Assembly: GCA_026702615.1 (NCBI GenBank)
Contig: JAPPBY010000017.1
Coordinates: 124,001 to 188,000 of the forward strand
From: Chloroflexota bacterium
GTDB lineage: Bacteria > Chloroflexota > Dehalococcoidia > Tepidiformales > Tepidiformaceae
Reading direction: 5' to 3'
Length of the DNA: 64,000 bases
The position numbers were made by a program, and so were the translations under genes. Below are positions 10,141 to 28,741 of this stretch, piece after piece; the first letter of the stretch is position 1; the number at the start of each line of letters is the position of its first letter. The notes beneath the pieces were generated by a model. That model ran no database searches and was not told the origin of the DNA. It saw only the letters and a list, made by a program, of their open reading frames with translations.

Positions 10141-10187
10141 TACCCAGGAGTGCCCAAGGCACTTTGTTAAGATTTCTTGCCAAGCAC

Positions 10188-10216
10188 TTGACAAGCACCC
10201 CTTGTTGTGCTAGGAT
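10188..10216 (+). promoter_or_regulatory. Consensus-like promoter of the HARE-HTH/GHKL ATPase island
   Basis: TTGACA (10188-10193), 17 bases, TAGGAT (10211-10216). This is one of the best sigma-70-type matches in the window. A start about 7 bases downstream leaves a short leader of some 20 bases containing AAAGGGG ahead of the ATG at 10246. The island therefore appears to be transcribed independently of the upstream metabolic genes. Confidence 0.75.
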
Positions 10217-10245
10217 ACCCCGTGTCCATCGAAAGGGGTCAGCGA

Positions 10246-10695
10246 ATGACACGCATTGACGGCGAACAGGACCTTCCGGGTTTGGGGTTTCGATTCCAAG
10301 AGCAGGCGCGCTCTGAACTTGAACGTCTCCAAGAACAAATGGGGTCGCTTGACAGCGAGCTAGCCAGGCTACAGGAGGAGCGAGAACGCGTAGCGACCGC
10401 TGTCGACCACCTGCGCGGCCTACTGAACCTCGGCACCCAGAACGCACGCGTTGCAGGCGGACCTCCAGCGGCTGCTCGACCAAGCCGTTCGCGCCGAGCA
10501 GAGGACGCCGAGCTTGTCGTCGAGTACCTGCAGGAGACCGGCCAGCCTGCTCACTACCGAGAGATTTACAGAGCACTCGCTGAGCAGGGCCTGGTCGTTG
10601 GCGGAAAGGACCCAGCCAACACACTTCTCGCCCGGTACTTCAACGACTCCCGGCTCGAGCGGGTGGCCCGGGGAACCTATGCACTAAAGAGTTAA
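10246..10695 (+). CDS. Coiled-coil protein with C-terminal HARE-HTH winged helix
   Basis: A 149-residue protein. Residues about 17-62 are a strongly predicted coiled coil (heptads rich in Leu, Glu, Arg). A Gly/Ala/Pro-rich linker follows, then residues about 85-147 resemble the HARE-HTH fold: ELVVEYLQETGQPAHYREIYRALAEQG, an NTLLARYFN helix, and the wing LERVARGTYAL. HARE-HTH domains occur in ASXL, RNA polymerase delta and restriction-linked proteins, and are proposed to read DNA state. Codon and base composition are lower in GC (about 58% in line 10261-10320) than neighbouring genes. It probably forms a unit with the ATPase 107 bases downstream. Confidence 0.72.
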   Translation: MTRIDGEQDLPGLGFRFQEQARSELERLQEQMGSLDSELARLQEERERVATAVDHLRGLLNLGTQNARVAGGPPAAARPSRSRRAEDAELVVEYLQETGQPAHYREIYRALAEQGLVVGGKDPANTLLARYFNDSRLERVARGTYALKS

Positions 10696-10752
10696 GCCAG
10701 ACGCAACGCCGAGAGCGTTTCACCAACCCTATCTACACAGCTACTTGGTCAG

Positions 10753-10769
10753 GCCGAGCCTCGCTCGGC
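10753..10769 (+). other. Perfect intercistronic hairpin between HARE-HTH and ATPase genes
   Basis: GCCGAGC-CTC-GCTCGGC forms a 7 bp perfect stem with a 3-base loop. It is followed by TAAGAAAC rather than a T run, so it does not look like a classical terminator. It could be an operator for the upstream DNA-binding protein, or an RNA processing or attenuation element that sets unequal expression of the two genes. Confidence 0.5.
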
Positions 10770-10802
10770 TAAGAAACTCATGCACCAAGAAAGGAGAGAG
10801 AT

Positions 10803-12344
10803 ATGACCAACATTACAGAAACCATCGGGCGTAGCGCGCTGCTGGCCGCAGCTAGCAACTATCAGTCCGTCGCTGAGGCCCTCATGGAACTCATCGACAA
10901 TCCATTCGACAAGCGCCGGGGACGACACTTGACGATCGACATCAGGATCGACAAGAAGCGAGACCGCGTCACCATCACAGACATTGGCGGGGAGGGGATG
11001 AACGACGAGGGTCTCCAAGGGTGGATCCGCTGGGGAGAGGGCGAACAGCACGAGCAAGGTGACATCGGCCAGTACCGGGTCGGCGGCAAGCTCGCGGCGA
11101 TTTATCTCGCTGAAGGCTTGGAGATCGTCTGTCGCAAGGCCAACAACACTGCGATCTGGCGGTTCGAAGACCCCCACTGGGGCAGCCGCACCAAGGCCTT
11201 GAGTGAGTCCCCGCTAGGCGAAGTTCCACCGGCTACCATTCGTTGGCCTGACGGTGCCCCTTCCAAGGACGTGGGCTTCACTCGCGTCACCCTGACTGGG
11301 TTGCGAGGCCACCGCTACGAGATCGGCGTGTTGCGAGAGCGCCTCGCTGACACGTATCGCTCCCTCATTGAGGAGGGCCAGTGCACGATCCTTGTACAAG
11401 GCACGGCAGTGGAAGAGCGTCAGACTCCGTGGTCTTCGTCGATTGGGGTCAATGAGATTCCGAAGACTCAGGTCTTCAAGGGGGTCTACATCCTCGGGAG
11501 TGTCGGTGCCATCGATCGCGACCAAGTTCCGGAAGCACGGGGTGTCCGCATTCCCGCGGGTATACGAACTGAATTCAACGGGCGAAAGATCTCCGACGGG
11601 GAGGAGTTCGGCTTCAAGCTCTCGGGCAAGGGGAACCTTCAGCGAGTGTACGGCGAAATTCAGATTCGTGGCCGTGGCATCAAGCCGAACCAGCTCAAGA
11701 CGGGCTGGCCCCAAGACAGTGAGGCATGGGCCTCTTTGGAAGCGTTTATGCACGAACAGATGCAACCCATCGTGTCGCAACTCAATCGCCTTTCCGAAGT
11801 CCGTCCCGTATCTCGCGAGCAGAAGGACCGCGCGAAGAAGGCCCGTGACCGCGCTCAAGAGGCATTCAAGAAGCTTGAACGGTTACGGAATCACCCGGGG
11901 GGGCAAGGCCTTCCCGAAGGCCACGGCCCTGAAGGGGTCGATGCCCCTGGCGGTCGCAGGATTGCTACACCAAAGGGTGGATGTCGCCCTCAACCGCAGG
12001 GAAGAACGAGGGGAAGGACGAAGAACCGGACGCCTGCCCCGGAGGGTTCAGTTGGGCGCCTTCTTCGACTCGTCACCAAGACTGGGAGGATGCCTTCCGT
12101 CGACTACGCCGCCCTTGGGGCACAGATTCCAAGAACACAATGGCGCGACAACGACGACAAGACGCGTGCCGTGGTCATCAACACCGACCACCCCCTTTTC
12201 GCAACTCTTGGGAGCCAAGAGGACTACGTCTTTGACTCGCTGGTCATGCACCTTGTGCATGACGAAGTGTCGTCCGTCAGGGACGCCCGCGACCTGATTG
12301 AGCAGATCATCTGGCTTGACCGGGAAACGGAGGAGGCCGCATGA
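10803..12344 (+). CDS. MORC/Hsp90-type GHKL ATPase
   Basis: A 513-residue GHKL ATPase. The N-box is EALMELIDNPFDKR (Glu29, Asn33, Asp36). The G1 region is ITDIGGEGMN (Asp60 to Asn67) and the G2 glycine loop is GQYRVGGKLA (about 89-98). An S5-fold transducer region follows, with a conserved-looking Lys in FNGRKISDGEEFGF. Residues 330-370 are charged and helical, then comes a Gly/Pro/Arg-rich linker and a C-terminal domain (HPLFATLGSQEDYVFD). There is no histidine-kinase, gyrase or MutL C-terminal domain. GC is about 57% in line 11401-11460 against 80% in line 12421-12480. A strong AAGGAGAG site precedes the ATG; the stop overlaps the SDR start. Confidence 0.75.
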   Translation: MTNITETIGRSALLAAASNYQSVAEALMELIDNPFDKRRGRHLTIDIRIDKKRDRVTITDIGGEGMNDEGLQGWIRWGEGEQHEQGDIGQYRVGGKLAAIYLAEGLEIVCRKANNTAIWRFEDPHWGSRTKALSESPLGEVPPATIRWPDGAPSKDVGFTRVTLTGLRGHRYEIGVLRERLADTYRSLIEEGQCTILVQGTAVEERQTPWSSSIGVNEIPKTQVFKGVYILGSVGAIDRDQVPEARGVRIPAGIRTEFNGRKISDGEEFGFKLSGKGNLQRVYGEIQIRGRGIKPNQLKTGWPQDSEAWASLEAFMHEQMQPIVSQLNRLSEVRPVSREQKDRAKKARDRAQEAFKKLERLRNHPGGQGLPEGHGPEGVDAPGGRRIATPKGGCRPQPQGRTRGRTKNRTPAPEGSVGRLLRLVTKTGRMPSVDYAALGAQIPRTQWRDNDDKTRAVVINTDHPLFATLGSQEDYVFDSLVMHLVHDEVSSVRDARDLIEQIIWLDRETEEAA

Positions 12345-13102
12345 GCACGTCGTTCGAGGGGAAGGCGATCATCGTCACGGGGGCGGCCTCGGGGATGGGA
12401 CGGGGCGTGGCCGAGCTGCTCGCCGAGCGGGGCGCCCGCGTGGCGATCGTCGACCCGGCCGCAGAGGGGCTAGCGGAGACAGAGCGCGCGCTGCGGGACG
12501 CCGGGAGCGAGGTCATCGCGGAGCCCATCAGCGTGGCCGACCCCGAGGCCGTCGAGCGGCTGGTCGCGCAGGTGCGCTCCGCCTGGGGCGGCATCGACGG
12601 GCTGGTCCACTGCGGGGCGATCCTGCGCTACGCGGGGTCGCTCGAGACCGACCTGGAAACGTGGCGCGAGGTCATCGACGTGAACCTGACGGGCACGTTC
12701 GTCATCGGACACGCCGTGGCGACCTCGATGGTCGAGGACGGCCGCAAGGGCGGCATCGTGAACATCGCCTCGGTGGCAGCCGTGCTGGGGCTCCCGAACC
12801 TCGCCGCCTACTCCGCCTCGAAGGGCGGGGTGGCGGCGCTCTCACGCTCGATGGCAATCGAGCTGCTCCCGCACGGCATACGGGTGAACTACATCTGCCC
12901 GGGGTTCGTCGAGAGCGGCATGACCGAGGACATCCTCGAAGAAGAGGGAGCGCGCGAGCGCATGGCCGAGCAGACGGCGACCGGCGCCATCTGCAGCCCG
13001 CGCGATATCGCCGAGGCGTGCGCGTTCCTGCTGGGCGAGGAGAGCGCGGGATACGTCATCGGCAACGGACTGATGGTCGATTCGGGAGTCACCATCCGCT
13101 AG
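12341..13102 (+). CDS. Short-chain dehydrogenase/reductase (SDR)
   Basis: Classical NAD(P)-dependent SDR of 253 residues. It has the cofactor motif VTGAASGMGRG, the structural motif near VHCGAI (NNAG equivalent), the catalytic Ser in NIASVAAV, and YSASKGG (Tyr and Lys), with INPG replaced by ICPG. Asp following the second strand (IVDP) suggests NAD(H) preference. Its ATG overlaps the TGA of the island ATPase, and its GGAGGAGG ribosome site lies inside the ATPase coding end. The base composition jumps to high GC here, so it belongs with the resident metabolic genes. Substrate unknown. Confidence 0.9.
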   Translation: MSTSFEGKAIIVTGAASGMGRGVAELLAERGARVAIVDPAAEGLAETERALRDAGSEVIAEPISVADPEAVERLVAQVRSAWGGIDGLVHCGAILRYAGSLETDLETWREVIDVNLTGTFVIGHAVATSMVEDGRKGGIVNIASVAAVLGLPNLAAYSASKGGVAALSRSMAIELLPHGIRVNYICPGFVESGMTEDILEEEGARERMAEQTATGAICSPRDIAEACAFLLGEESAGYVIGNGLMVDSGVTIR

Positions 13103-23716: not shown

Positions 23717-25014
23717 TCGGCTTCCTCCTCCTCGGGCTCCTCGGACTCCGCAGTCGCGATTTCCTGGAGCCGGGCGAGCGTCTTGTCGGTCAGCAACGTG
23801 TTGCGAATGCTGGCCGAGCCGCGATCGCTCTCAAACATGGTACGCATACTTTCGGCCTGTTCGCCCATGGGCTCCAGCATTTTCTCGAGCTGCTCGTCGA
23901 CTTCCGCGTCGGTGACCTCGATGCCCTCGGCGCTCGTGAGCTCGCTCAGGACGAGGGAACGGAAGAGCCGCTCCTGGGCGGGTTCGCGGTACATCTCGCG
24001 GAATTCGTCGGTGGTCTTGCCAATCTGGGCGAGGTGCGCCTGGTAGGCGCGCACGTCGCTGCCGTGGCTCTCGCGGATGATCCCGTCGATCTCGCGGTCG
24101 AGGAGTACCTGCGGGTATTCGATCTCGGAAAGGCCGACGAGCTCGTCGACGACCTTGAGGCGGTAGGCCTCGTCGGCCTGGCGCTGGAGCGTTTCCCGGA
24201 GGTCGTTGCGGACGCGCTCATGGAGGTCGTCGATGGTCTCGAACTCCTCGGGATTGACCTGCTGGGCGAGGTCGTCGTCCTCGTCCGGCAGCTCTTCCTC
24301 CTTCACGGCCTTCACGGTGAGGGTGATGGAGGCGGTCTTGTTGGCGACCTGCTCGGGGAAGTCCTCCGGGATGGGAAGCTCGACGGTCTTCTCGGACTCG
24401 GCTTCCATGCCGAGGAACTGCTCGGCGAGGTCGGGGAGGAGGAGGCGCTGACCTTCGCGCAATGGGAACTCCACATCCTCGTCCTGGACGAAGGGAGCGC
24501 CGTCAACGGTGCCCTTGATGTCGGCGGTGAGGATGTCGTCCCACTCGGCGCCGCGCTCGACCGGGGCGATGGTGGCGAAGCGGCGGCGGATCATCTCCAT
24601 CTGCTCATCGAACATCTCGTCGGTGACGTCGACGGGCTCGGGAGCGATGCGGATGGACTCGTAGTCGCCGAGGGTGACGGTGGGGCGGACGGGCACCGTC
24701 GCCTTGAAGCGGACAGGCTCGGTCTCGAGGATTTCGAGCTCAGGCTGGTCGACGGCGTCGACCTCCTCGCTCTCAAGGGCTTCGGTGTAAACGGCAGGAA
24801 CGAGGGCATCAAGGGCTTCGCCAAGGAGGCGGTCGCGGCCGACCATCTGCTCGACGATGCGGCGGGGGGCCTTGCCGGGGCGAAAACCGGGGATGCGCAG
24901 GGTGGGGACGAGGCGCTTGTAAGCGGCATCGAGGGACCGCTCAAGGCGGTCCGGTTCGACTTCGATCTCTAGCTGGACACGGCTCTCTGGGAGCCGTTCG
25001 AGAGTGACCTTCAC
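23713..25014 (-). CDS. tig: Trigger factor (ribosome-associated chaperone)
   Basis: A 433-residue trigger factor. The N-terminal ribosome-docking region contains [18 protein letters not shown], which includes the family signature around GFR..K. The middle PPIase domain has [15 protein letters not shown], and the C-terminal helical chaperone arms end in an acidic EEPEEEEAE tail. The start is GTG 25014 with GGAGG 12 bases upstream; a TATACT -10-like box lies about 30 bases upstream. It overlaps clpP by 4 bases. Confidence 0.95.
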
Positions 25015-25076
25015 CGGGCCGCCGTGCCTCCGCGATTCGAGTATACGGGATTCATTCTTTACGTCTCAGCGCCGGG

Positions 25077-26051
25077 TCAACGCCGGTAGGTGCGCGGTTC
25101 GACGATGTCGACAAGGGCATCGCCGAGCAGGTTCCAGGAGAAGAAGAAGAGGATGATCGGGATGCCCGAGACGAGCAGCATGTGCGGATACTCCTGGAAG
25201 GTGCGGACGCCTCCTGCGTTGCCGAGCAAAGTCCCGAAGCTGGGAGTAGACGGATCGACCCCGAGGCCGAGGTAGCTGAGCGCAATCTCGCCGCCGGCGA
25301 TACCAGCCATCGATGCGGAGATGCCAACGAGGAAGATGGGCAGCACCCCGGGAAAGACATGGCGAATAAGAAGGCGCGTGGTCGATGCGCCAATCGTCTC
25401 GGCAGCGAGGATGTACTCCTGTTCGCGGATGGCCAGCACCTGGCTGCGCACGATGCGGGCGGATCCGATCCAGGCGAAGGGAAGGGCCGCCCCAACGATG
25501 ATGAGGAAGGGGACGACGGCGCGGGCGTCGTCGCCAAGGAAGGTGTTGTCCTTGAGCCAGAACGCGACGTCGTTGAGGCGCGTCCGGAAAGCAGCGGAGA
25601 TCGCCAGCATGAGGAGAAGCGTTGGTACACCGCTTAGCACTTCTCCGACGCGCATGATGGCGGTATCGATGTAGCCGCCGCGATAGCCCGCAAGCAACCC
25701 CAGACTGAGCCCCAGCACCAGGGAACCCGTCAGGATCACGACGAGCGTAAAGATGAGCGTGGTTCGGGCGGAGTACACGACGCGGGAGTACAGATCGCGA
25801 CCAGCTGCATCCGTCCCGAACCAGTGCTCGCTCGAGGGTGTGTCCAGCCGTTCCTCAATGGTGAGCCGCTGGTAGTTGGGGTCACTGGTAGAGACCCAGG
25901 GAGCAAGAATGCCGGCGAGATAGAAGATGGTGATCAGGACGATCGCGACCATGGCGATCTTCTTGCGGACAAGCTCGCGGAGGAAGCGATAGCGGGGCGC
26001 GGGGCGCGTCCCGAGGTCTCCAGTCTCCAGGGGAGCTACGACGGTGCTCAT
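25077..26051 (-). CDS. Oligopeptide-type ABC transporter permease (DppC/OppC)
   Basis: Inner-membrane permease of 324 residues with about six hydrophobic segments. The N-terminal OppC_N region has KKIAMVAIVLITIFYLAGILAPW. The periplasmic HWFGTDAAGRDLYSRV motif is typical of DppC, and the EAA loop is AAETIGASTTRLLIRHVFPGVLPI. It follows the DppB-type gene by 2 bases. No ATPase genes (DppD/F) are adjacent, so the transporter must borrow ATPases encoded elsewhere. Substrate could be peptides, nickel or other small solutes. Confidence 0.92.
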   Translation of the reverse strand: MSTVVAPLETGDLGTRPAPRYRFLRELVRKKIAMVAIVLITIFYLAGILAPWVSTSDPNYQRLTIEERLDTPSSEHWFGTDAAGRDLYSRVVYSARTTLIFTLVVILTGSLVLGLSLGLLAGYRGGYIDTAIMRVGEVLSGVPTLLLMLAISAAFRTRLNDVAFWLKDNTFLGDDARAVVPFLIIVGAALPFAWIGSARIVRSQVLAIREQEYILAAETIGASTTRLLIRHVFPGVLPIFLVGISASMAGIAGGEIALSYLGLGVDPSTPSFGTLLGNAGGVRTFQEYPHMLLVSGIPIILFFFSWNLLGDALVDIVEPRTYRR

Positions 26052-26053
26052 CG

Positions 26054-27007
26054 CTAGCCGCCCCTCGCCGCGGTGATGCGGATCCGCGGATCGATGAAGC
26101 CGTAGGCAATGTCGATGAGGATGTTGGCGAGGACGAAGAGGACCGAGCCGAAGAGCACCAGCCCGAGAACGACATCGAAGTCGAACCCGAGGACGGCCTG
26201 GAGTGATTCACGGGCGATGCCAGGGATGCCAAAGAGGAGCTCGACGAAGAGAGAGCCCGCGAACAGCCCGGGCAGGGAAAGCCCGATGGCCGTGATCATG
26301 GGAAGGAGGGCGTTCCGCACAACGTGCGACACCACGACGGTGCGCTCGCGCAATCCCTTGGCACGGGCCGTGCGGACATACTCCTCGTTGCTGACCTGGA
26401 TGACCGAGGCACGCATGAGCCGCGCAACTCCCGCTACGCCCGGCAGTGACATGACGAAGACGGGAAGGATGATGTTGGGGTGGAGGACGCCCTCGTAGGT
26501 GAGGTCGACCCAGCCCAACTGGAGCGCGAAGAGCCAGGGCGCAACGACCGCGGAGACAAAAACGGGGATCGAGTCGATCAAGAGCCAGAACCCGATGATG
26601 AGGGGATCGAGAAAGGACCCGCGTACCAGGGCGGCGTACACGCCGACGGGAATGCCCAGCCCAAAGACGAGGACAATCGCCATGATCCCCATCCCGGCAG
26701 AGACGCGAATTTTCGGAATGATGACTTCGGCCACGGAGAAGTCGCCGTGCTTCGTGGAGACGCCTAGGTCGCCCTGGAAGAGGTTCTGGACGTACTTTAA
26801 GTACTGGATGTGCAGGGGTCGGTCGTAGCCGTACTTCTGCCGCAGCCGTTCGGCGATCTCCTCGTCGTAGCGCTGGCCGAGGAGTGAATCGATGGGGTCC
26901 TGGGGTGCGAGCCGGAGCAGCAGGAAGACCAGGATCGAGATGGCAATGATCACCGGGACGGTCCAGAGAAGCCGCCTGATGACGTAGCCCGCGAGCCCCT
27001 GGCTCAC
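26054..27007 (-). CDS. Oligopeptide-type ABC transporter permease (DppB/OppB)
   Basis: Permease of 317 residues. The N-terminal transmembrane segment GYVIRRLLWTVPVIIAISILVFLLLRLAPQDP and the family's downstream LG(Q)RYDEEIAERLRQKYGYDRPLHIQY are clear, and the EAA-type loop is RTARAKGLRERTVVVSHVVRNALLP. GTG 27007 has AGGACGGA before it. The gene order binding protein, DppB, DppC on one strand supports a single import operon. Confidence 0.93.
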   Translation of the reverse strand: MSQGLAGYVIRRLLWTVPVIIAISILVFLLLRLAPQDPIDSLLGQRYDEEIAERLRQKYGYDRPLHIQYLKYVQNLFQGDLGVSTKHGDFSVAEVIIPKIRVSAGMGIMAIVLVFGLGIPVGVYAALVRGSFLDPLIIGFWLLIDSIPVFVSAVVAPWLFALQLGWVDLTYEGVLHPNIILPVFVMSLPGVAGVARLMRASVIQVSNEEYVRTARAKGLRERTVVVSHVVRNALLPMITAIGLSLPGLFAGSLFVELLFGIPGIARESLQAVLGFDFDVVLGLVLFGSVLFVLANILIDIAYGFIDPRIRITAARGG

Positions 27008-27013
27008 TCCGTC

Positions 27014-28741
27014 CTACTCTCCCGAAGTGTCGATCTCGATGTAGCGGTACTTGGGCACGATGGTACCGGGATCGACCCAGTTCTGGACGCACTCACGCAC
27101 AAGATAGTGACTGATCGTCCAGAAGGTGGGAATGATGGGGGCATCGTCGATGATGAGCTGCTCGGCCTCGTGGTAGAGCCGGAAGCGGGCCTCCTGGTCG
27201 CCCAGGGTGGCGGCCTCGTTGAGGAGGGCATCGACGCGCTCGTTTTCGTAGCCGGTGTGGTTGAGGCGGCTCTCGCTGGAGAAGAGCTTGCCGAGGAAGT
27301 TCTCGGGATCGGGGTAGTCGGCGATCCAGCCGGCCGAGTACATCTGGAAGGTGCCGCGGCGCAGCTCGCGCAGGTAGGCGGACCACTCGATGGCCTCGAT
27401 CTCGACCTCGACGCCGAGGGCTTCGCGCCACTGCTGCTGGTACGCCTGAAGGTTGTCGGGCGGGTCGCCGCCGCCACCGCTGAAGGTGAGGATAATGCGG
27501 GGCATGTCGTCGGCGTAGCGGGACTGCGCGAGCAGTTCCGCCGCGCGCTCCGGATCGTACGGGTAGGTCGTGACGGCCTCGGCGTAGCCGGGCAGGGTCG
27601 GCGGGAGGATGCCGTCGGCTACGACGGCGGCATCGAAGAAGAGAACCTCGTTGATGGCCTCGCGGTTGATGGCATGAGCGAACGCCTGCCGGACGAGCGG
27701 GTCGTCGAACGGGGGCTCGTTCACGTTGAAGCCGAGATAGAAAATGGAGAGCTGGGGCACGGGCCGGTAGAACTCGCTCAGCTCACTCTCGCCGCTGAGG
27801 ACCCCGGCAAGCTCGACCGCAGGCACGAGGGCGACGTGGATCTCGTCGTTCTGGAAGCGGGTCGAAAGTGAGCCGCCACTGAGGCTGAACACGACCTCGT
27901 CGACCTTGGGCGGACCAAGGTGGTAACGGTCGTTGGGGATGAGGACGATCTCCTCAAGGGGGCGGAACGTCTTGACGCGGAAGGGCCCGGTGCCGTTGGG
28001 CCTGCGTGTCCAGTTGTTCGGGTCGTCCTCGATCTGCTCGCGGTCGACCACATAGGCGACGGTGTAGGTGAGCTGCTGGAGGAAGTAGCTGATGGGCTCG
28101 GTGAGCTCGATGCGGAGGGTGTACTCGTCGACAACCTGGACGCCGCTGATGTCGTCGGCGCGGCCGTTGAACTTGTCCCGCACACCGACGATGTCGCCGA
28201 GGTAGTCGAGAACGGTGGGGGAGAAGTTGGCGGGGTCGGCGGCCCGCTCGAGGCTGTACTTGACGTCCTCGGCGGTAACGCGGCGGCCGTTGTGGAAGAC
28301 GACATCGTCGCGCAGGAAGAAGGTGTAGACGTGACCGCCGTCCGTGATCTCCCAGCGCTCGGCGATGTCGGGCACCACCTCCAGGTCGAGGTTCAGGGTA
28401 ACGAGGCCACCGAAGATCTCGGCGGTGTACTCGGCCGTGCTGGCATCGCCAATCTGGATGGGGTCGAAGACGGTGGCGGGGTCATCGCCGAAGGTGACGA
28501 GGCGGTTCTCGCCACAGATACCGCCAGTTGTTCGGTCGCCGTCGTCGCGATCATCGGCTTCCTGAGTGCTGCGGTCGTCGGTGGCATCGTCGCGGTCTGC
28601 CGAATCGCTGGCGGGACGGGCGGGCGTGTCGTCGCCGTCACCCCCATCGCCGCCGGAAAGCACAAGCACGAACACAACGGCAACCGCCACGATCAAGAGG
28701 GCGACGGCCCCCATCATCAGTCCGAGGGTGCGATTCGACAT
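27014..28741 (-). CDS. Peptide/nickel-type ABC transporter substrate-binding protein (SBP_bac_5)
   Basis: Extracytoplasmic solute-binding protein of 575 residues. Instead of a lipobox it has an uncleaved-looking hydrophobic anchor (about residues 8-29), followed by a 45-residue stalk very rich in Asp, Gly and Thr. The SBP_bac_5 domain then runs from about residue 85: TAEDVKYSLERAAD, FNVNEPPFDDPLVRQAFAHAINREAI, and YSAGWIADYPDPENFL. Only two Cys are present beyond the anchor. GGGAGAAACC precedes the ATG. It is the first gene of the importer operon. Confidence 0.93.
   Translation of the reverse strand: MSNRTLGLMMGAVALLIVAVAVVFVLVLSGGDGGDGDDTPARPASDSADRDDATDDRSTQEADDRDDGDRTTGGICGENRLVTFGDDPATVFDPIQIGDASTAEYTAEIFGGLVTLNLDLEVVPDIAERWEITDGGHVYTFFLRDDVVFHNGRRVTAEDVKYSLERAADPANFSPTVLDYLGDIVGVRDKFNGRADDISGVQVVDEYTLRIELTEPISYFLQQLTYTVAYVVDREQIEDDPNNWTRRPNGTGPFRVKTFRPLEEIVLIPNDRYHLGPPKVDEVVFSLSGGSLSTRFQNDEIHVALVPAVELAGVLSGESELSEFYRPVPQLSIFYLGFNVNEPPFDDPLVRQAFAHAINREAINEVLFFDAAVVADGILPPTLPGYAEAVTTYPYDPERAAELLAQSRYADDMPRIILTFSGGGGDPPDNLQAYQQQWREALGVEVEIEAIEWSAYLRELRRGTFQMYSAGWIADYPDPENFLGKLFSSESRLNHTGYENERVDALLNEAATLGDQEARFRLYHEAEQLIIDDAPIIPTFWTISHYLVRECVQNWVDPGTIVPKYRYIEIDTSGE

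Follow-up and report, generated by a model that had tools for sequence, protein, structure and literature searches.

A compact pair of genes, encoding a coiled-coil HARE-HTH protein and a MORC-like GHKL ATPase, was recently acquired by insertion into the 64,000-nucleotide stretch of DNA analysed here (the window), and the association of the two genes is not a chance neighbourhood. We infer that the insert is a small mobile DNA-surveillance cassette whose HARE protein would read DNA that the ATPase then clamps, a reading of function to which we assign a probability of roughly 55%.

The gene pair occupies a site that is empty in congeners

Comparison with congeners places the inserted segment at 10141–12334 of the window, about 2.19 kb, with ends good to approximately 10 bp. 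The insert is missing from this site in all eight congeners, which directly supports the claim that it is an island. All eight keep the upstream gene, and in seven the SDR gene that follows the insert in the window comes directly next; the eighth (G005) lacks the SDR gene, and the gene after that comes next instead. Two congeners, G003 and G004, have flanks 93–98% identical to those of the window, with 20–26 bp in place of the insert, and in G004 the flanks (98% and 95% identical) lie 26 bp apart. Our search of the insert ends found no integrase, no clear terminal or inverted repeats and no target duplication; candidate terminal repeats and duplications were rejected since the repeats were at chance level.

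Composition also sets the insert apart. Its GC content is 60.0% compared to 69.0% for the remaining window, falling to 58.2% in the lowest 500-bp window, and GC3 of the two genes is 63% and 70% compared to 91% and 93% in the flanking genes. A sequence-only reading of this DNA had proposed a horizontally acquired, compact gene pair, and the empty site, the low GC content and a second case of presence and absence between sister genomes (G530 and G051, below) bear this out. The same reading had GC jumping to 80% in the next gene; the low-GC insert stands, but the resident gene downstream has a GC content of 71%. The host genome comprises 2.87 Mb in 38 contigs. Elsewhere in the window, a second GC dip (25001–27500) reaches 63% across 2 kb compared to a mean of 68.6%.

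The insert carries only two genes between its resident flanks, both on the forward strand: the HARE gene (10246–10695, 149 aa, ATG start) and, 107 bp downstream, the ATPase gene (10803–12344, 513 aa), the two open reading frames that had been called. No helicase, nuclease or methylase is present, in agreement with the earlier claim that the pair lacks the latter two. The TTGACA-17-TAGGAT promoter-like element is where it had been read, within the insert at 10188–10216 on the forward strand, with TG ahead of the −10 (1 found vs 0.3 expected). A 7-bp hairpin (GCCGAGC-CTC-GCTCGGC) is likewise present between the genes at 10753–10769 on the forward strand, but the predicted fold of the intergenic sequence is ordinary (z −1.64; 16 of 200 shuffles equally good) and the hairpin is not followed by a T run, so it carries little meaning; we rejected it as a candidate regulator since its structure does not exceed that of shuffled sequence. 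At the downstream end, the ATPase stop codon lies within resident sequence (GGCCGCATGAGC) and overlaps the start codon of the SDR gene beyond it (12341–13102) as ATGA at 12341–12344 on the forward strand, so the insert fits neatly into the resident row of genes.

A coiled-coil HARE-HTH protein precedes a MORC-like ATPase

The HARE-HTH assignment of the first gene product was upheld by a match to PF05066 over residues 95–149 (E 3.1e-6; 27.9 bits against a cut-off of 25.9). Its AlphaFold2 model consists of one 60-residue helix, predicted to form a coiled coil (residues 10–69, 10273–10452, forward strand; block pLDDT mostly 91–98), and a confident winged-helix HARE-HTH domain (residues 83–149, 10492–10692, forward strand). 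The nearest folds, all with weak E-values, were Z-alpha of ZBP1, the DNA-binding domain of Rok (5zuz, E 0.014) and a chain of an S. aureus RNA polymerase complex. A PADLOC search with this protein returned no convincing match, just a coiled-coil match at 0.046. The HARE protein probably reads DNA.

The second gene product matches PF13589 (HATPase_c_3) above the cut-off (E 1.7e-8). The GHKL domain spans residues 22–118 (10866–11156, forward strand) and bears an N box (E29/D32/N33), a G1 motif (D60-G65-M66) and a G2 motif (G89/G94/G95/K96). Model secondary structure and Foldseek place an S5/transducer region at residues ~158–300 (11274–11702, forward strand); helical arms follow in the model at residues 307–363 (11721–11891, forward strand), and a disordered linker (367–411) then leads to a C-terminal alpha/beta domain with a (V/I)N-(Y/H)PL(F/Y) motif (residues 416–512, 12048–12338, forward strand). 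The catalytic residues are intact: nine positions of the ATP site (E29, D32, N33, G65, M66, G89, G94, G95 and K96) are invariant in 19 of 19 aligned sequences, as is the basic S5 residue K299; Glu29 and Asn33, singled out earlier as residues to mutate, are thus invariant N-box positions. When the family profile was compared to the PDB, matches were limited to MORC3 and MORC4 (best 4e-11), which substantiates the proposed MORC-like identity, and in Foldseek searches with the AlphaFold2 model the GHKL and S5 unit matched MORC3, MORC4, SMCHD1 and Hsp90.

Finer motifs vary across the family. The MORC S5 motif GhXhhpXXRhl is present at 8/8 positions in 13 distant relatives, 6/8 in L022, L110 and L111, and 4/8 in the window ATPase, L112 and L113. 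The paraMORC2 ExxxH motif, which belongs to the C-terminal part of S5 and was scored by the motif alone, occurs as E313 and H317 in the window ATPase, L022 and the distant relatives except L114, and in none of L110–L113. Neither Pfam, NCBIfam nor PADLOC identified a nuclease in the ATPase, its C-terminal domain included and DUF4263 among the families considered, and no PADLOC model matched it. The ATPase probably clamps DNA.

These features also bear on a rather unlikely alternative, in which a HARE protein akin to Rok or H-NS coats foreign DNA and the ATPase compacts it, as is reported for C. elegans MORC-1, such that foreign DNA is silenced rather than destroyed. Neither protein has a nuclease, a coiled coil is joined to a winged helix with Rok among its nearest folds, and the PDB profile matches are to MORC proteins only, all of which would suit silencing. 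However, the similarity to Rok is weak and the winged helix is a generic fold, HARE-HTH domains have been tied to modified rather than AT-rich DNA, and presence of the cassette in one of nine genomes of the genus fits defence better than housekeeping silencing.

The pair recurs, and the ATPase also occurs alone

Outside the window, a HARE gene is directly followed by a gene of the same ATPase subfamily in two other families of the host's class, Dehalococcoidia (Chloroflexota). In G530 (locus L110) the pair is intact, with 3 nt separating the HARE gene from the ATPase gene that follows; in G455 (contig 47, L109) the two reading frames overlap, and that of the ATPase contains one in-frame TAG. 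The ATPases of these two loci are just 31% identical. At the corresponding site, G051, the sister of G530, has 450 bp of unrelated DNA in which neither gene has left a trace. Genomes of family f21 share a site downstream of an amidohydrolase gene (or of the SDR gene that follows it). This site holds a HARE gene in G055 and an ATPase gene in G533, the latter genome also having a HARE gene about 14 kb away, while in G592 the two genes lie on two contigs whose common flank is 95% identical. Gene trees group each window protein with its f21 counterpart, at 97/95 for the ATPase and 92/93 for the HARE protein. GC content is 6–14 points below that of the flanks in nine of nine other module copies measured.

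In G592, the interval that separates the HARE or ATPase gene from the amidohydrolase gene contains short G+C-rich near-palindromic repeats (CCCATCCCCCGCTTCACGCGGGGGTC; L161:3200-3500 and L113:280-460), marking a possible insertion hotspot.

The two genes also co-occur beyond the adjacent pairs. A strong HARE relative is found in 5 of the 7 genomes with the ATPase subfamily as compared to 21 of 393 overall in the class (p = 5e-6; p = 7e-5 without the window's own genome). That the genes are accidental neighbours, transferred together once, is therefore highly improbable: the subfamily yields just three pairs among 393 genomes and ATPase-only copies exist, which favours accident, but the two pairs in other families, the shared f21 locus, the congruent trees and the co-occurrence all speak against it.

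The pairing is nonetheless not obligate, because the ATPase occurs without a HARE neighbour in close and distant relatives alike. The ATPase was found in none of the eight congeners and in 1 of the 27 other family members tested. Close relatives (28–45% identity) are present in G022, G455 (two copies), G530, G674, G533 and G592, and distant ones (~22–31% identity) in other classes; the copies in G022 and G674, one of the two in G455 and all distant relatives examined are solitary. No HARE relative was detected anywhere in the G022 and G674 genomes, and no PF05066 match genome-wide in the distant relatives. Conserved neighbours of the distant relatives, considered as alternative partners, reduced to a shared chromosomal context in family f63. 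The proposal of a two-gene system, which rarity of adjacent homologues would have undone, is thus half sustained: pairs recur, relatives of both genes share a locus in f21 and the gene trees agree, yet G022, G674 and one of the G455 loci have the ATPase by itself.

Solitary ATPases are one of several points against a surveillance cassette. The phage, plasmid and viral-contig collections searched contained no relatives of either protein, PADLOC recognised neither protein convincingly, and the inserts inspected adjoin metabolic genes rather than defence islands. Both ATPase copies in G455 (L108 and L109) carry one in-frame TAG.

Coiled-coil HARE genes precede dissimilar GHKL ATPases

We examined 27 HARE loci, counting that of the window. 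In ten of them a GHKL ATPase gene lies downstream in the same orientation, either next to the HARE gene or one gene further on: the window, L109 and L110 (this subfamily), L066 and L155, L068 and L148, L064 and L070, and L063. A PF13589 gene lies within 5 kb of a random point in about 0.9% of cases, giving an expectation of about 0.2 loci; the formal p of ~1e-12 is readable just as far above background, because the searches used different thresholds and the loci are related to one another. At least four dissimilar GHKL types follow coiled-coil HARE genes in this arrangement, and in this phylum HARE genes of this kind are often found immediately ahead of unrelated GHKL ATPase genes. Profile comparison supported assignment of the L064 type to GHKL (96%) and, weakly, that of the L066/L148 type (40%), whose Pfam matches range from 0.0009 to 0.011.

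Some candidates were set aside. The type-3 ATPases (L067, L153 and L154) resemble GHKL proteins by motif only, without support from profile comparison, and were excluded from the counts. L038, L039 and L041 gave weak matches and belong to a different, DNMT-GHKL-Z1-type system: a DNA cytosine methylase, a GHKL ATPase and a 904–922-aa Z1-domain-like protein occur in conserved order with more conserved genes, an arrangement resembling Z1/AIPR restriction-modification-like systems (Iyer 2008).

This recurring order bears on the possibility, which we consider unlikely though the strongest of the alternatives, that the ATPase is the functional unit and works by itself, and that the HARE protein only regulates its transcription or is a dispensable accessory. 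Close relatives that have the ATPase alone, and many distant ones, are in keeping with this, as is the position of the HTH gene first under the promoter, a common layout for regulators. But a gene-specific repressor would poorly explain one order ahead of so many dissimilar GHKL types, and the literature ties HARE-HTH domains to DNA reading in effector proteins (PMC10853773).

Two of the ten loci have a third gene. In L066:4529-8920 and L155:3584-7878, a coiled-coil HARE gene is followed by an N6/N4 DNA methylase gene and a gene for a GHKL protein of ~925 aa, likely a restriction-modification-like relative of the window pair. The methylase between HARE and ATPase genes in these loci, along with the prevalence of such ATPases in restriction-modification operons (Iyer 2008, PMC2292703), would fit the window pair being what decay has left of a larger restriction-modification or defence locus, its nuclease and methylase having been lost. 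We regard this as improbable, as neither window gene is disrupted, the likewise intact L110 pair of another family shows the same direct succession, and nothing else lies in the insert between the resident flanks.

Type-2 relatives also occur on plasmids of other phyla, where no HARE neighbour is annotated, and the HARE gene from L148, itself a type-2 pair, had no match in a tblastn search of plasmids. One plasmid-borne relative of the L148-type GHKL protein (L175, NZ_CP110137.1) lies by integrase, SIR2, DUF262 and PAPS-reductase genes, in what looks like a defence island. The genome that harbours the window has two further GHKL loci. The first, a second low-GC island (61%; L167:3988-6734, G000:C13:237987-240733) flanked by a recQ-like helicase gene and a glutamine amidotransferase-like gene, encodes a 197-aa protein and a 726-aa GHKL ATPase related to those of L064 and L070, without a HARE gene. 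The second (L168, G000:C15:58000-66000; ~60% GC) has a recombinase-like gene, a gene for an 883-aa GHKL protein and a methylase-like gene on the opposite strand.

A proposed mode of action and its relation to known systems

As a surveillance cassette, the pair might work as follows, judging from the families to which its products belong. The HARE protein would oligomerise through its coiled coil and bind DNA, probably of a kind marked as foreign, for instance by modified bases, and would then load or trigger the ATPase. ATP-driven dimerisation would close the ATPase on DNA as a clamp, and the closed clamp could loop, compact or block the DNA, or mark it for host nucleases. Its most likely role, as a guess, is to guard the cell against DNA from phages or plasmids. 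A nuclease-free mode is plausible because C. elegans MORC-1 is reported to entrap and condense DNA (PMC8277788).

More tentatively, a coiled-coil HARE reader coupled to a GHKL/MORC ATPase could be a general nuclease-free bacterial design to recognise and close on foreign DNA, built repeatedly with dissimilar GHKL families and a counterpart of eukaryotic MORC silencing. The two-gene unit of the window is minimal and intact, and its MORC-type ATPase, if it works, would do so without nuclease, helicase or methylase. If so, the ancestral activity of MORC ATPases would be testable in bacteria, and a class of defence or silencing cassette missed by the 2023 PADLOC models would be added.

The components are known, and we found no published account of a HARE protein paired with a MORC-like ATPase, though an earlier description may exist: our literature search, outside of which the defining 2012 HARE-HTH paper fell, returned neither the two-gene nuclease-free combination nor the repeated use of dissimilar GHKL families as partners. 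Support from the literature for the proposed mode of action is indirect. MORC and paraMORC ATPases of prokaryotes occur mostly in restriction-modification operons (Iyer, Abhiman and Aravind 2008, PMC2292703). The window ATPase shares with them the GHKL and S5 unit and a sporadic, mobile distribution, and its wider family keeps the S5 motif at 8/8 positions, but it has no adjoining SFII helicase, nuclease or methylase, and it retains the motif at 4/8 positions. VcSduA, a Shedu-type protein (paraMORC3) that joins an N-terminal GHKL domain to a nuclease, blocks phage, and its E27A substitution abolishes the block (PMC12137116). Like the window ATPase, it is a GHKL ATPase, in its case a small phage-defence unit, with a conserved catalytic Glu (E27 in VcSduA, E29 in the window); in contrast, it is a single gene with a C-terminal PD-(D/E)xK nuclease, where the window has no nuclease and a separate HARE-HTH protein.

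HARE-HTH domains have been proposed as readers that discriminate modified DNA (PMC10853773), and in Dnd-linked and BREX-linked loci they are fused to REase domains (PMC10853773, PMC12839542). The window protein shares the domain proposed to make this discrimination, whereas its fusion is to a coiled coil, not a nuclease, and its gene adjoins that of a GHKL ATPase. Eukaryotic MORC3 and MORC4 differ from the window ATPase in their CW and other histone-reading domains, which it lacks, and in their C-terminal domain, but they are its sole profile matches in the PDB and resemble it in fold across the GHKL and S5 regions.
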